From Flaviaestuariibacter flavus (lineage in GTDB: Bacteria > Bacteroidota > Bacteroidia > Chitinophagales > Chitinophagaceae): a stretch of DNA of 64,000 nt. A model generated the notes under the pieces. That model saw nothing but the letters and a program-made list of their open reading frames with translations, did not search any database and was not told the DNA's origin. Positions 4,379 through 62,080 of this stretch are shown piece by piece. A program made the position numbers and the translations under genes. The DNA lies in NCBI RefSeq assembly GCF_004337505.1, contig NZ_SJZI01000003.1, positions 62,001 through 126,000 of the forward strand. The letters run 5' to 3'. How positions within the stretch are numbered: position 1 is the stretch's first letter; every line of letters starts with the position of its first letter.

Positions 4379-4528
4379 TCAGGCTTCGCTGCCAGAGGTT
4401 GCGGCGGGTTGGGTGAGCTTGTCGTGGAACTCCTCGGTGATCTGGTTGACGGCAGTTATGATGCCCAGCCAGGGCTCGGCAGTGCAGTTGTACGCGCTTT
4501 CCGATTGCTTCATCAAGACCGCGCACAT
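4379..4528 (-). CDS. possible small protein, 49 residues
   Basis: A short frame begins MCAVLMKQSESAYNCTAEP and ends TQPAATSGSEA. A second possible start is the Met at 4513 (44 residues). The stop lies 21 bp before the bidirectional terminator at 4331-4358, the position expected for a real transcript end. The composition (amphipathic ITAVNQITEEFHDKL) reads like protein rather than the junk of the other frames. No family is recognised and there is no further support, so it may also be a fragment of a decayed gene. Confidence 0.35.
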   Translation of the reverse strand: MCAVLMKQSESAYNCTAEPWLGIITAVNQITEEFHDKLTQPAATSGSEA

Positions 4529-4639
4529 GAGCCAGGCTGCGGTCTTTAAGTTGTAAATTCATATAGTTCAACGCATGGCGCAAAGCCCCGGTCGTTAACT
4601 GCAACCCTGACAGCATTCTTCACAATAAAAATGTAGATC

Positions 4640-57026: not shown

Positions 57027-60000
57027 ATGGAGTATAATTTCAGAGCGATCGAGCAGAAATGGCAGCAGCAGTGGGCCGACAGCGGCGCCTATAAAGTGAG
57101 CAACGAATCGTCGAAGCCGAAGTTCTACGTGCTCGACATGTTTCCCTACCCCAGCGGCGCCGGCCTGCATGTGGGCCACCCGCTTGGCTATATCGCCTCC
57201 GACATCTTTGCCCGCTACAAGCGCAACAAGGGCTTCAACGTGCTGCACCCCATGGGCTACGACGCCTTCGGCCTCCCCGCCGAGCAATACGCCATCGAGC
57301 ACGGCGTGCACCCCGCCGTGAGTACCGCCAAAAACATCGCCACCTTCCGCTCGCAGCTCGATAAGATCGGCTTTTGCTTCGATTGGAGCCGCCAGGTGAA
57401 CACCTCCGAGCCGCGCTATTACAAATGGACGCAGTGGATCTTCCTGCAGCTGTTCAACAGCTGGTACAACCGCCGGACGAACCGCACCGAAAAGATCGAT
57501 ACGCTCATCGCGGCTTTCGAAAAGGAGGGCAATGCATCCCACCCGCTGCCCGCCTTCGGAAAGGCTCAGGCTGACAACGGGCCGGATTTCCCCGAAAAGT
57601 TCACGGCCGGTGAATGGAAGGCTTTCGATGAAAAAACGAAGATGGCCATCCTCATGGAATACCGCACCGCCTATTGCGGCTACGGTGAGGTGAACTGGTG
57701 CGAAGCCCTCGGCACCGTGCTGGCCAACGACGAAGTGGTGAACGGCGTAAGCGAGCGCGGCGGCTATCCCGTTATCAAAAAACGCCTCCGGCAGTGGTAT
57801 CTCCGCATCACCGAGTACGCCGACCGCCTCCTCGAAGGCCTGCAGACCGTCGACTTCTCCGATGCGATGAAGGAGATGCAAAGCAACTGGATCGGGAAGT
57901 CGAGCGGCGCCGAAATTGACTTCGAGGTCGTTTCCCCTCTCCGCTCCGGAGAGGCAACCAAGCAAAGCGAAGGTTGGTCGCGGAGCGAGGGGGGTGAGGT
58001 CATCCGTGTCTACACAACCCGCCCCGACACCATCTTCGGCGTCGACTTCATGGTGCTCGCCCCCGAGCACGACCTCGTGCTGCAGATCGCCTCCGGCGAG
58101 CAACGTGCCGCCGTGGAAGAATACGTGGCCTACGTGAAGAGCCGATCCGAGCGCGAGCGCATGGCCGAGAAGAAGATCTCGGGTGTGTTCACCGGCGCTT
58201 ACGTGCAGCATCCTTTCAGCGACAAAAAGATCCCCGTGTGGATCTCCGAATATGTGCTGGCCGGCTACGGCACGGGCGCCATCATGGCCGTGCCGAGCGG
58301 CGACGAGCGCGATCATAAGTTTGCCCGTCACTTCAATATTCCCATCACCAATATCTGGGGCGACGCCTACACCGGCGAAGACGCCGTTACCGACAAGAGC
58401 CTCGTGCTGCACGGGTCGGATTTCGTGAACGGCAAGACGGCGAAAGAGGCCATCGGGCTCGTGATCGACAAGCTGGTGGAAAAAGGCATCGGCATCCGCA
58501 AGATCAACTTCCGCCTCCGCGACGCGGCCTTCAGCCGCCAGCGCTACTGGGGCGAGCCCTTCCCCATCAAGTGGATCGACGGCGTGGCCTATCCCCTGGA
58601 TGAAAGCGAGCTGCCGCTCGAGCTCCCGTACGTGGAGAAATACGGTCCCGGCCCCGAGGGTGAAGGCCCGCTGGCCAACGTGCCCGAGTGGACGGCGCAG
58701 CACCTCGAGACCAACACGATGCCGGGCTATGCCGGCTCCTCCTGGTATTTCCTCCGCTACATGGATCCGCACAACGACGCCGAGTTCTGCTCGAAGAAGG
58801 CATCCGACTACTGGCGCCAGGTTGACCTTTACGTGGGCGGCACCGAGCACGCCGTGGGTCACCTGCTGTATAGCCGCATGTGGACGAAGTGCCTGTTTGA
58901 TCTTGGATTGATTTCGTTTGACGAGCCGTTTAAGCGCTTGCTTAACCAGGGGATGATCCAGGGCTCAAGCCGGTTTGTGTATCGTTTGTCGTTGGCTCCA
59001 GAGTTCGCGCAGCCCGAGCTCGATAATGGAATTGTTTCTCCTACTGTGTTAGTATCAAAGACGTTTGTTGATAATTACGACAGCTCAGAAGTGCAAACTT
59101 TTTTAGAAAAGAAATTAGCCGAGCTGGATCTACAAGCGGCTTACTCCGGGGTGGTAAAATCCTTTTATCAATTTGACAAGCCGGTTCCTTTGCATGTTGA
59201 CGTAAATCTTGTTGATGGAGTAGAGTTAGATATCGAAGCTTACAGAAACTGGAAACCAGACTTTAAGAGCGCAATCTTTATTTTGGAAGACGGCACTATC
59301 TCCCTCCCCCTAGGGGAGGGCCGGGGTGGGGTCTCTTCGGAAAGCGGTGAGACAGCCCGGGGTGGTGTTTATATCTGTGGCGTCGAAGTCGAAAAGATGT
59401 CCAAGTCCAAAGTCAACACCGTCAACCCCGACGTACTCGTTGAAAAATACGGCGCCGACACCTTCCGCATGTACGAGATGTTCCTCGGCCCGGTGGAGAT
59501 GTCGAAGCCCTGGGATACCAAAGGCATCGAAGGCGTGCACCGCTTCCTCAAAAAACTCTGGCGCCTTTTCTACAACGAAGGCGGACTGCAGGTTACCAAC
59601 GAAGCGCCGACGAAAGACGAACTCAAGACGCTGCACAAAACGATCAGGAAGATCGAGGAAGACACGGAGCGCTTCTCCTTCAATACGGCGGTGTCTACGT
59701 TCATGATCGCCGTCAACGAGCTCACGGATCTCAAGTCTTCGAAGAAGGATATTCTTTCTCCGCTGCTGGTGCTGCTGACACCCTATGCCCCGCACATCGC
59801 GGAGGAACTCTGGGCGGCACTCGGCAACAGCGACTCCGTGCTCGACGCGCCCTTCCCGAAGTTCGAAGCCGAATACCTCGTGGAGTCTTCGAAGGAATAC
59901 CCGGTCTCGATCAACGGCAAGAACCGCACGCAGATCAACATCGCCCTCGACGCCACCGAAGAACAGGTGAAGGAGATCGTGCTGGCCAACGAGATCGTGC

Positions 60001-60074
60001 AGAAGTGGATGGAAGGCAAGCCGCTGAAGAAGCTCGTTTTTGTAAAAGGACGGATGGTGAATCTCGTGGTTTGA
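57027..60074 (+). CDS. leuS: leucyl-tRNA synthetase with two palindrome-derived insertions
   Basis: 1015 residues, longer than most LeuRS. Class I motifs are present: PYPSGAGLHVGHP (HIGH-type, about 41-53) and EKMSKSKVNTVNP (KMSKS, about 788-800). The editing domain (about 225-430) has YTTRPDTIFGVDF. The ADTFRMYEMFLGP segment and C-terminal anticodon-binding and tRNA-contact domains are intact. Two insertions are odd: residues about 302-323 (PLRSGEATKQSEGWSRSEGG) and about 758-781 (SLPLGEGRGGVSSESGETAR). Both are encoded by palindromic DNA and keep the frame. The part from about 58900 to 59290 has an AT-rich codon use unlike the rest. The enzyme charges tRNA-Leu in the cytoplasm. Confidence 0.96.
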   Translation: MEYNFRAIEQKWQQQWADSGAYKVSNESSKPKFYVLDMFPYPSGAGLHVGHPLGYIASDIFARYKRNKGFNVLHPMGYDAFGLPAEQYAIEHGVHPAVSTAKNIATFRSQLDKIGFCFDWSRQVNTSEPRYYKWTQWIFLQLFNSWYNRRTNRTEKIDTLIAAFEKEGNASHPLPAFGKAQADNGPDFPEKFTAGEWKAFDEKTKMAILMEYRTAYCGYGEVNWCEALGTVLANDEVVNGVSERGGYPVIKKRLRQWYLRITEYADRLLEGLQTVDFSDAMKEMQSNWIGKSSGAEIDFEVVSPLRSGEATKQSEGWSRSEGGEVIRVYTTRPDTIFGVDFMVLAPEHDLVLQIASGEQRAAVEEYVAYVKSRSERERMAEKKISGVFTGAYVQHPFSDKKIPVWISEYVLAGYGTGAIMAVPSGDERDHKFARHFNIPITNIWGDAYTGEDAVTDKSLVLHGSDFVNGKTAKEAIGLVIDKLVEKGIGIRKINFRLRDAAFSRQRYWGEPFPIKWIDGVAYPLDESELPLELPYVEKYGPGPEGEGPLANVPEWTAQHLETNTMPGYAGSSWYFLRYMDPHNDAEFCSKKASDYWRQVDLYVGGTEHAVGHLLYSRMWTKCLFDLGLISFDEPFKRLLNQGMIQGSSRFVYRLSLAPEFAQPELDNGIVSPTVLVSKTFVDNYDSSEVQTFLEKKLAELDLQAAYSGVVKSFYQFDKPVPLHVDVNLVDGVELDIEAYRNWKPDFKSAIFILEDGTISLPLGEGRGGVSSESGETARGGVYICGVEVEKMSKSKVNTVNPDVLVEKYGADTFRMYEMFLGPVEMSKPWDTKGIEGVHRFLKKLWRLFYNEGGLQVTNEAPTKDELKTLHKTIRKIEEDTERFSFNTAVSTFMIAVNELTDLKSSKKDILSPLLVLLTPYAPHIAEELWAALGNSDSVLDAPFPKFEAEYLVESSKEYPVSINGKNRTQINIALDATEEQVKEIVLANEIVQKWMEGKPLKKLVFVKGRMVNLVV
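57927..57998. repeat. palindromic insertion inside leuS, editing domain
   Basis: CTCTCCG/CGGAGAG and CAACC/GGTTG inverted pairs, with CCCCTC at one end and GAGGGGGG at the other, make a nested palindrome of about 70 bp that is translated in frame. Confidence 0.7.
59298..59371. repeat. palindromic insertion inside leuS, before KMSKS
   Basis: CCCTCCCC/GGGGAGGG (loop CTA) is followed by GCCGGGGTGGGGTCTC and the inverse-type GAGAC-GCCCGGGGTGGTG. It resembles the CCCCTAGGGG-type palindromes common between Bacteroidota genes, but is translated in frame here. Confidence 0.72.
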
Positions 60075-60102
60075 TCAACTTTGAAATATGTTTTAGTAGA
60101 AG

Positions 60103-60127
60103 GAGGGCCTTGCGGCCCTCTTTTTTT
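60103..60127 (+). terminator. terminator of leuS
   Basis: Stem GAGGGCC with its complement and loop TTGC, followed by a run of T. Confidence 0.9.
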
Positions 60128-60134
60128 CGCGAAG

Positions 60135-60238
60135 GCACGACGGCGCAACGGCACAACGAATAATATTCAGAGGCAGGACGGCGCCGTAAGCAAGTGTAAA
60201 AAATAAACGTCGTGTCTTCGTGCCGTCGTGCCGTCGTG
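60135..60238. repeat. inverted period-8 repeat arms, family F
   Basis: Left arm 60135-60158 has units GCACGACG, GCGCAACG and GCACAACG. Right arm 60207-60238 has ACGTCGTG, TCTTCGTG, CCGTCGTG and CCGTCGTG. The centre is 48 bp. Confidence 0.9.
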
Positions 60239-60264
60239 ACCCAAGGCCGCCTGCGGCCAAAAAG

Positions 60265-60600
60265 TCCCGGAAAACTCCGCAAACCCCTCCGCGATCGCCG
60301 GAAGGCTTCCGGAAAAGTCTTTAAGCCCCCCTTCGATCGACACAGGTGTTCCGGAAAACTCTTTGGTGCCGCCTTCGATCGAAGGAGGCTTTGCCGGAAT
60401 TCCATAACTGCCTCCCGCGAACGCGACCGGGCTTCCCGGAAATCCGGGAAGGCTTGCCGCGTTCGAAGGAAGGATCCCGGGAAATCCCGGAAGGCTTTCT
60501 TCGTCTGAAAGAAGGGTTCCCGGAAATCCGGGAAGGCTTCGTTCGTCCGACGGACCCTTTCCCGGAAATCCGGGAAGGGTTGCGTTGAACGCGTAAGGGG
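60265..60600. repeat. array of eight exact 42-bp units with paired palindromes
   Basis: Units start at 60265, 60307, 60349, 60391, 60433, 60475, 60517 and 60559, always 42 bp apart. Each begins with a version of TTCCCGGAAATCCGGGAA (complete in units 5, 7 and 8, shortened to TTCCGGAAA or similar in units 1-4). The second half of the unit holds a different palindrome each time, for example CCTTCGATCGAAGG in unit 3, GTCCGACGGAC in unit 7 and GCGTTGAACGC in unit 8. All three frames on one strand stay open for long distances because 42 is divisible by 3. No cas or transposase gene is near. Confidence 0.93.
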
Positions 60601-60636
60601 TTCATTGATAGTGTATTGTGTGTGTTTTCAGGCGCG

Positions 60637-60836
60637 TCATTGCGAGGAGGCTACCCAACAGTGCCGTCATTGCGAGGAGGCGAGCGGAGCTAGACGACGA
60701 AGCAAGCTTCTGATCTATGGGACAACTGCGTTGCTTCGGCTTAGGGCAGTGCCATAGATGGGAGATTGCTTCGCTCCACTGCGTTTCGCTCGCAATGACG
60801 GCTCTAAAGAAGCGCTGCGCTCGCAATGGCAGCCTT
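60637..60836. repeat. palindromic element (GTCATTGCGAG type), compound
   Basis: Two copies of GTCATTGCGAGGAGGC (about 60638 and 60664) face inverse copies GCTCGCAATGACGG (about 60789) and GCGCTCGCAATGG. Same family as 54275-54442. It fills the space up to the next gene. Confidence 0.82.
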
Positions 60837-60924
60837 GAAGCGGCAGTGGAACAGGCGCCCAATCTTTAAGCCCCCTTTCGCAAACAAAAGCATGCCTTTT
60901 GCTGTTTTTCCGGAAAGCATTTTC

Positions 60925-61437
60925 ATGGCTTACCCGAACCTGACCCTCATCAGCGCCCTCCGCAACGCGGCCCGGCAGCTCCGCGGGGGCGCGCCCTATG
61001 CCTGGGGCGACCACGGCTCCTGCAACTGCGGCCACCTGCTGCAGGTGGTGACGCACCTGAGCCGCGAGGAGATCCTGCGGCATGCCCGCACCGGCATCGG
61101 CGAGTGGACCGAGATCGCCGAAGACTATTGCGGCGTTACCGAGGCTCCCGTCACCCTGCTGATGAGCCGCCTCGAGGCCATCGGCCTTACCCCCACCGAT
61201 ATCCATTGCCTGGAATATCTGCAGGACCGCGCCGTGCTCGGGCGCCTGCCCGGCGGCTTCCGCTGGCTGCAGAAGAATGTGCGCGCAGACGTCATCCTGT
61301 ATTTCGAAACCTTCGCTGATTTACTCGAAGAGCAGCTGCTGCCGCGGGTGGATATTTCGCTTGCGCTGCCGAAGCCCGATCTTTGCCCACATGCGCACGG
61401 AAGAATTTCTACAGAAGCTGCAGGGGCAGCACATTGA
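60925..61437 (+). CDS. conserved hypothetical protein, 170 residues
   Basis: The protein starts MAYPNLTLISALRNAARQLRG and contains YAWGDHGSCNCGHLLQVVTHLSREEI, a Cys-His cluster that may bind a metal, then GIGEWTEIAEDYCG and PTDIHCLEYLQDRAVL. I recognise it as a protein conserved in Bacteroidota but without a known function. The start at 60925 is where this conserved sequence begins. The last 47 bp overlap the M23 peptidase gene in another frame. Confidence 0.78.
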   Translation: MAYPNLTLISALRNAARQLRGGAPYAWGDHGSCNCGHLLQVVTHLSREEILRHARTGIGEWTEIAEDYCGVTEAPVTLLMSRLEAIGLTPTDIHCLEYLQDRAVLGRLPGGFRWLQKNVRADVILYFETFADLLEEQLLPRVDISLALPKPDLCPHAHGRISTEAAGAAH

Positions 61438-62080
61438 GCCGGTGGTGCCGCTTGCGCCCGGCGATAAGCTGCTGCGGATGAACCTGACGGCCGAAAACAG
61501 CGCGCTCAACGCAGAAACGTTTACGAGCACCGACCGCTTCTCGGCCTGGGTGGAAGACCTGCTGCACCGCGAAGGCGCCCGCTACGGCGTGGGCGGCTGG
61601 GGCGAGCACCGCACCATCTATGCCCGCAGCGAAAAATTCGATACCGGCGAGGAGCCGCGTCGCCTGCACCTGGGCATCGACATCTGGGGAGCCGCGGGCA
61701 CGCCCGTATCGGCACCGCTGGCCGGCACGGTGCACAGCTATGCCATCAACCGGGCCTTTGGCGATTACGGCGGCACCGTAATTCTGCAGCACAACGTAAA
61801 CGGCTTTGTGTTTCATACGCTTTACGGGCACCTGAGCCACGCTTCGGTCGCCGGCAAGACGGAGGGCGCGCCGGTAGCCGCGGGTGCGCAGATCGCCACC
61901 TTCGGCATCCCCGAAGAAAACGGCCAGTGGCCGCCGCACCTGCACTTCCAGGTGATCATCGATATGCAGGGACATTGGGGCGACTACCACGGCGTGTGCC
62001 GCTTTTCGCAGCGGGAACGCTGGCTGGAGAATTGTCCCGATCCCGACGTGCTGCTGCGGATGATGGCGCGGGCGGTGTAA
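61391..62080 (+). CDS. M23 family metallopeptidase
   Basis: 229 residues without a signal peptide. The zinc motifs are RRLHLGIDIWG (HxxxD) and PPHLHFQVII (HxH), with YGHLSH between them, as in LytM/M23 enzymes, which cut peptide cross-links in peptidoglycan. The start at 61391 (MRTEEFLQKLQ) lies inside the end of the preceding gene, an unusually long overlap of 47 bp that implies co-translation or a later start. The absence of an export signal is odd for a wall hydrolase; a cytoplasmic or non-classical role is possible. Confidence 0.88.
   Translation: MRTEEFLQKLQGQHIEPVVPLAPGDKLLRMNLTAENSALNAETFTSTDRFSAWVEDLLHREGARYGVGGWGEHRTIYARSEKFDTGEEPRRLHLGIDIWGAAGTPVSAPLAGTVHSYAINRAFGDYGGTVILQHNVNGFVFHTLYGHLSHASVAGKTEGAPVAAGAQIATFGIPEENGQWPPHLHFQVIIDMQGHWGDYHGVCRFSQRERWLENCPDPDVLLRMMARAV

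Follow-up and report, generated by a model that had tools for sequence, protein, structure and literature searches.

A tandem array of 42-bp two-dyad units in Flaviaestuariibacter flavus is an orphan member of an array class that, in the genomes examined, is usually found just upstream of genes from two protein families of uncharacterised function

Iterons, parS-like sites and phased operator arrays are made of repeated dyads in helical phase, the sequence of which is conserved for one protein. REP/BIME elements and integron attC sites are dispersed palindromic DNA in which structure counts for more than sequence, and they occur as single sites or small clusters. The arrays described here share with the former the repeated dyads in helical phase, and with the latter their dispersal, their palindromic nature and the greater weight of structure over sequence. 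Unlike iterons and their like, they change between close paralogs and are present in many copies per genome; unlike REP/BIME and attC, they are 40-43-bp arrays of about six units that front particular gene families. CRISPR arrays offer another comparison, as the array in the window (the whole stretch of 64,000 nucleotides analysed) also alternates constant and changing segments at fixed length. However, its constant part is degenerate, its changing parts are dyads with CGNNCG common to most units, and most other dyad arrays repeat both halves; the combination of near-identical repeats and unrelated spacers by which a CRISPR array is recognised was not found in the window array. Finally, the excerpted text of PMC4627078 describes the repeats of type III toxin-antitoxin systems as lying directly upstream of a small gene and differing greatly in sequence and length between loci. 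The present arrays resemble those of ToxIN, CptIN and TenpIN in being tandem repeats that differ strongly from locus to locus and stand immediately ahead of a small gene, which the window copy lacks. They differ from them in having a unit fixed near four helical turns with two dyads each, and in showing neither a toxin-family match in the example proteins nor a pooled RNA-type mismatch pattern. The literature listings searched contained nothing on such arrays, and a single paper in them named the Pfam family DUF6261. The finding connects an unexplained repeat with two protein families of uncharacterised function, and the arrays offer a directly testable case of conserved DNA geometry with unconserved sequence.

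The window array and its neighbours are the following.

57027..60074, + strand: leuS, the upstream neighbour, named from sequence alone; its C-terminal portion aligns with sequence in L290 and L291
60265..60600, + strand: eight-unit 42-bp dyad array; strand set to read like the related C52 array, itself upstream of its gene
60265..60432, + strand: units 1-4; first dyad diverged, with core CGATCG in units 1-3 and CGAACG in unit 4
60433..60600, + strand: units 5-8; TTCCCGGAAATCCGGGAA exact in 5, 7 and 8 and near-exact in 6; second dyad changing
60601..60927, no strand: array-to-next-gene stretch, which holds a CATTGCGAGG...CGCAATGACG repeat
60928..61437, + strand: next gene; without a Pfam hit up to E 1

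The eight units start exactly 42 bp apart, at 60265 + 42n (n = 0-7), as the first-pass annotation had reported. The lag-42 match over 60265-60600 was 0.653, the runner-up among lags 10-69 being 63 with 0.396, and Tandem Repeats Finder placed period 42 at 60434-60583 with a score of 140, the top of its 11 rows in the window. The axis of the first dyad, whose best form is TTCCCGGAAATCCGGGAA, falls at unit position 9.5; that of the second, which in most units has the core CGNNCG at unit positions 28-33, falls at 30.5. This gives one dyad every 21 bp. The same annotation had described each unit as a constant half followed by a palindrome of its own. The constant half holds exactly in 3/8 units and nearly in a fourth, but not in the diverged units 1-4. 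Likewise, the second halves of units 3, 4, 7 and 8 are clean palindromes, each with its own axis, but those of units 1 and 2 keep 8-bp cores only, that of unit 6 has an interrupted stem, and unit 5 has no stem of at least 4 bp with a loop of up to 8.

Base pairing had been said to persist while the sequence changes. On the common axis 30.5, 40/72 cells of the second half pair against 38.9 expected from column shuffling, a value reached by 2049/5000 shuffles; since this is the shuffle level, the statement is unsupported on the common axis of the window array. The constant half exceeded its shuffles, with 47/72 pairing cells against 40.9 expected (reached by 21/5000 shuffles), but that of the related C52 array did not, with 41/63 against 44.6 in shuffles. 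As a single strand, the window array folds better than 100/100 dinucleotide shuffles, with z -4.9 under DNA and z -5.9 under RNA parameters. A coding repeat was rejected: conservation is equal at the three codon positions (top-base counts summed over 15 units and added by hand were 143, 143 and 143), and the periods of 41 and 43 found at other loci exclude coding.

By BLAST, a second array was found in the same genome at G000:C52:148405-148585 (E 2.1e-10, 68% identity, period 42). It precedes a 229-residue gene without a Pfam match, a member of a family referred to here as family B. A sequence model of two units led to a weaker third array, C8:573588-573667 (E 1.6e-4), ahead of a DUF6261 gene, and also found arrays in the congener G011. 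BLAST of the window array against 97 relatives gave no comparable match (best E 0.0054), though several of them carry such arrays. Other genomes, in which a search had been proposed, do have such arrays, and these occur in five families of the class. DUF6261 (PF19775) was detected in 5/58 relatives, all in the window's genus (33 genes), in 7/395 genomes of the class (16 further genes) and in 88/123 genomes of one other family, where the listed matches reach 29 in a single genome. Family B, to which the C52 gene and G011:C14 belong, was detected in 4/18 genomes of the genus, each of which also has DUF6261.

We read 119 DUF6261 loci (33, 16, 30 and 40) and assessed the 114 with at least 250 bp upstream, 5 being shorter. 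Start codons at scored loci were chosen by rule, and an array was called at a period of 40-43 bp with a match of at least 0.5 over 126 bp. In this set, in which loci L174-L203 are high-scoring family matches rather than a random draw and loci L204-L243 were picked from listed matches of four genomes and not by array, an array lies just upstream of 100/114 DUF6261 genes (28/33, 13/16, 21/25 and 38/40); with each of three near-identical sets counted once, the figure is 94/108. All 16/16 family-B genes have an array upstream and 0/16 have one downstream. Among the DUF6261 genes without a call, eight peak at 40-43 below 0.5, near background, and six do not, one of them being partly masked. Some of these misses peak near multiples of 21 (L144 at 83 with 0.97, L129 at 82 with 0.50, L149 at 129 with 0.50), and the region upstream of L144 (G016:C14) holds a higher-order 83-bp unit with dyads 20.5 bp apart.

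For comparison by Fisher tests, an array was called in 2/72 downstream regions and in 1/488 other windows, the latter taken from loci that had been retrieved through weak BLAST or model matches; loci known to carry arrays or matched by model R1, L120/L083 among them, had been removed by hand. L120/L083 carry a 21/42-bp repeat adjoining neither gene family, which in L120 (4850-5220, G008:C212) lies between a gene and a miaE gene and is without clear dyads. The sole control match, L012 at about 920-1300 (G000:C42), is a 42-bp repeat scoring 0.56 that directly follows a small gene of 258 residues belonging to neither family; that gene perhaps represents a further gene family with arrays. Four database records outside the counts also carry an array: a Prevotella nigrescens record (period 41, score 0.69), a Parabacteroides distasonis plasmid (42, 0.80) and two unverified faecal 'Bacteriophage sp.' scaffolds (periods 41 and 41, scores 0.52 and 0.52). 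A scan of viral_contigs for viral spread gave 62 pattern matches, none of which was confirmed.

The window array is an orphan member of this class, which usually lies just upstream of the two families. No DUF6261 or family-B gene was found adjoining it, and no relic of one was found in 60601-60927 (tblastn with 135 DUF6261 and family-B proteins, best E 0.003 within the 4-kb piece). The next gene was rejected as a partner, its homologues in 16 relatives having no array upstream. In the window, leuS and the next gene are separated by about 860 bp, against 330 in G011 and 110 in G016, and neither of the two shorter gaps has an array; the homologues of the next gene in a further 14 relatives, in most of which leuS is out of reach, also have no array upstream. 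Because the gap in these two relatives is short and array-free, the window array was most probably inserted in this lineage, or it is a copy that has lost its gene. Neither family has a gene next to the G011:C30 array, which adjoins hutI. A palindrome at 60245-60258, taken earlier for a possible older unit, looks like a piece of another dispersed repeat; the stretch ahead of unit 1 has matches at nine further places of the genome, one with E 3.6e-4 and the others, singly weak, at E 0.37-4.5. Downstream of the array, at window 60637-60810, the inverted-repeat element seen before the next gene is presumably a dispersed intergenic repeat as well. Far from the array, on the minus strand at window 4382-4549, lies a C-terminal DUF6261 fragment whose 47 aligned residues are 57% identical to L147 (E 1.2e-11), apparently a decayed copy.

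The geometry of the class was examined in the 116 arrays beside DUF6261 and family-B genes. Their period is 42 in 58, 41 in 43, 43 in 13 and 40 in 2; the median number of units is 6.3, and the median distance from array end to start codon is 77 bp (18-188 at the 10th-90th percentile). The consensus sequences of 65 arrays have a best dyad stronger than that of their shuffles (Fisher p 4e-23), with 22/65 singly palindromic at p 0.05. At half a period from it, a second dyad has a paired fraction of 0.436 against 0.253 in shuffles, and a fraction of at least 0.55 in 28/65 consensuses against 5% of shuffles. Dyad pairing peaks about 2.5-6 bp from the axis and is low at the centre. The periods and the half-period dyad fit four and two helical turns and are not expected of coding sequence or RNA hairpins, and the dyads lie at whole-helical-turn spacing, as in a phased operator array. 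The phased protein-binding array suggested earlier as a role is therefore supported in kind as to its geometry, and the protein is what we infer from it. A constant and a changing palindrome did not prove to be a general rule inside arrays, the dyad difference averaging 0.155 against 0.126 for random axes, and compensation between units within arrays is weak (998 cells against 951, z 3.2; 880 against 857.5, z 1.4).

Comparison between paralogs showed that array geometry is kept while sequence is not. Among 15 protein pairs of at least 85% identity, 9 have the same array and 6 share part of it, all six with the same period. Whole-array alignment of loci encoding proteins 87-96% identical revealed one dyad swapped for a different palindrome and the other kept: in L229/L236 the TTCCAACGTGATTGGAA dyad is retained and ATTGCGTGGACGCAAT gives way to ATTTCTATCGGAAAT, and in L227/L228 GAAGTCCGACTTC stands at the same place as GAATCATTGATTC. 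Among 11 pairs of 71-77% identity, 5 array pairs are no more alike than random (95% level). In L236/L237, where array similarity is lost, a conserved stretch from array to gene remains (spacer score 73). The period agrees in 17/23 pairs of at least 70% identity, against 1184/3209 pairs without a BLAST hit. Arrays are homogenised within loci and diverge quickly between them. Selection on structure, which had been read from the window array, gets no support from covariation inside that array, but it is seen when close paralogs, or different loci, are compared: the dyad letters change, and the dyad and its spacing stay.

A promoter-like motif, TTG-N17-22-TAnnTT, is present in the last 130 bp before the gene at 31/113 loci against 6.2 expected. 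It is also raised upstream of the arrays (15/103 against 4.3 expected), and this, together with arrays ending within 20 bp of the start codon, indicates that the promoter does not lie downstream of the array in every case.

The two- and four-turn spacing, the dyad symmetry and the position before the gene point to a dimer bound side by side on duplex DNA near the promoter. The reading that we prefer, to which we give an even chance, is that the array class is a cis-acting duplex-DNA platform for a dimeric protein that sets the expression of the adjacent gene, and that the window copy is an orphan. The array would act as double-stranded DNA, along one helix face of which a dimeric DNA-binding protein would assemble side by side; sitting near the promoter of the adjacent gene, the bound protein would set that gene's expression. 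Since dyad symmetry and phase persist through the turnover of the letters, the protein that binds would mainly read geometry, or would itself often be replaced. The window copy would have lost its gene, or arrived without it, and would now stand in the leuS intergenic region. If the arrays do control or address these genes, dozens per genome would make a large regulatory set missed by sequence-based searches. A further-reaching proposal, which we regard as tentative and rather less probable, is that these loci form a new class of gene cassette, composed of a small helical-protein gene and an upstream array defined by geometry alone, with one dyad per two helical turns and letters freely exchangeable. 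With up to dozens of cassettes per genome bearing mostly different dyads, the arrays could then serve as interchangeable address tags, or as sensors of dimeric DNA-binding proteins, including foreign ones, by which the adjacent gene is switched on.

The tight linkage of array and gene (100/114 and 16/16) would also be expected if the DUF6261 or family-B protein bound its own array as operator, array and protein specificity co-evolving, and the arrays shared wholly or partly by the most similar pairs, as well as the agreement of period among related proteins, speak for such autoregulation. However, array similarity is gone in 5/11 pairs at 71-77% identity, and a dyad can be swapped between proteins 87-96% identical. 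The DUF6261 proteins are acidic (median pI 5.6), and no DNA-binding domain was recognised by Pfam or NCBIfam in DUF6261 or family-B example proteins; the DUF6261 proteins are not obvious candidates as array binders, which weighs on the preferred reading as well. The predicted DUF6261 structure is all-helical and of low confidence (pLDDT 58, pTM 0.46), and its comparison with PDB folds gave no match at E 0.001 or better. Moreover, family B has the same array type, although no homology to DUF6261 was detected for it (hhalign probability 1.5%). We consider autoregulation unlikely, if still worth keeping in mind. RNA stems predict more G-T than A-C mismatches on the sense strand. The pooled dyad mismatches were 740 G-T against 852 A-C on-axis and 1126 against 1331 off-axis, and this lack of a G-U bias favours duplex DNA over RNA hairpins; the chain of RNA hairpins once proposed for the window array is not supported by these counts. 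In family B alone there is an A-C excess (98 G-T against 191 A-C), for which the excess of C-C over G-G mismatches on the sense strand of its arrays may account. The same mismatches weigh on a type III toxin-antitoxin-like system, in which the array would be transcribed and processed into repeat RNAs that keep the downstream protein inactive. Its appeal lies in tandem repeats placed directly upstream of a small gene and varying greatly between loci, as in the excerpted text of PMC4627078, in the RNA folding of the window array (z -5.9), in the nearness of some arrays to the start codon, and in the family-B A-C excess, which could mean antisense RNA. Yet the pooled G-U excess is absent, the promoter-like motif stands between array and gene at 31/113 loci, and no toxin match, ToxN, CptN and TenpN included, was found with Pfam, NCBIfam or PADLOC in 2-4 DUF6261 and 2-3 family-B example proteins. 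An Rfam scan of window 59000-62000 gave three matches, all below the gathering threshold (best MH_s15, 21.4 bits against the 123 needed). We consider a system of this type improbable.

Spread of the arrays bears on two remaining explanations. In G561, array and gene spread as a cassette. Of its 20 loci read, 18 carry arrays, on sight mutually different except for one set of three, which show 95-97% identity across some 1.42-1.45 kb and stand in contexts unrelated to each other. What the three have in common begins at the first dyad, 22-25 bp ahead of the array start as drawn automatically, and stops no more than 1 bp from the stop codon. The expanding repeat element suggested at first thus has in its favour that arrays are dispersed and that in this genome array and gene were copied to three places. 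The array could accordingly mark a mobile-cassette end recognised by a recombinase or a replication process, its regulatory position being incidental; the G561 borders and the gene-less window array in its widened intergenic region suit this. Against it, the flanks of the three copies show no visible target-site duplication, and similarity in other pairs does not end at the G561 borders: in L231/L239 it extends from about 100 bp ahead of the array to a point within the gene, in L227/L228 from 36 bp inside the gene to 124 bp beyond its end, and in L124/L132 from 39 bp ahead of the array to 466 bp beyond the stop. An exact cassette is therefore shown once, and we see little probability in a role as cassette end. 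Neutral tandem duplication through slippage at palindromes would explain why arrays are homogenised within loci and diverge fast between them, but the 40-43-bp unit held across unrelated sequences, the half-period dyad and the upstream position make it very improbable. The unit counts do not resemble the replication slippage of one sequence that had been named at the outset as a refuting outcome.

G561 is a single 3.0-Mb contig in which no fewer than 28 DUF6261 matches were scored, with 61 candidates at first look, so that the family of paralogs is very large. In G000, three identical DUF6261 copies (L263-L265, on C42, C15 and C21) lie on or near contig ends. The C15 copy carries about 740 bases immediately ahead of its array that the C42 copy lacks, and both edges share 44 bases.
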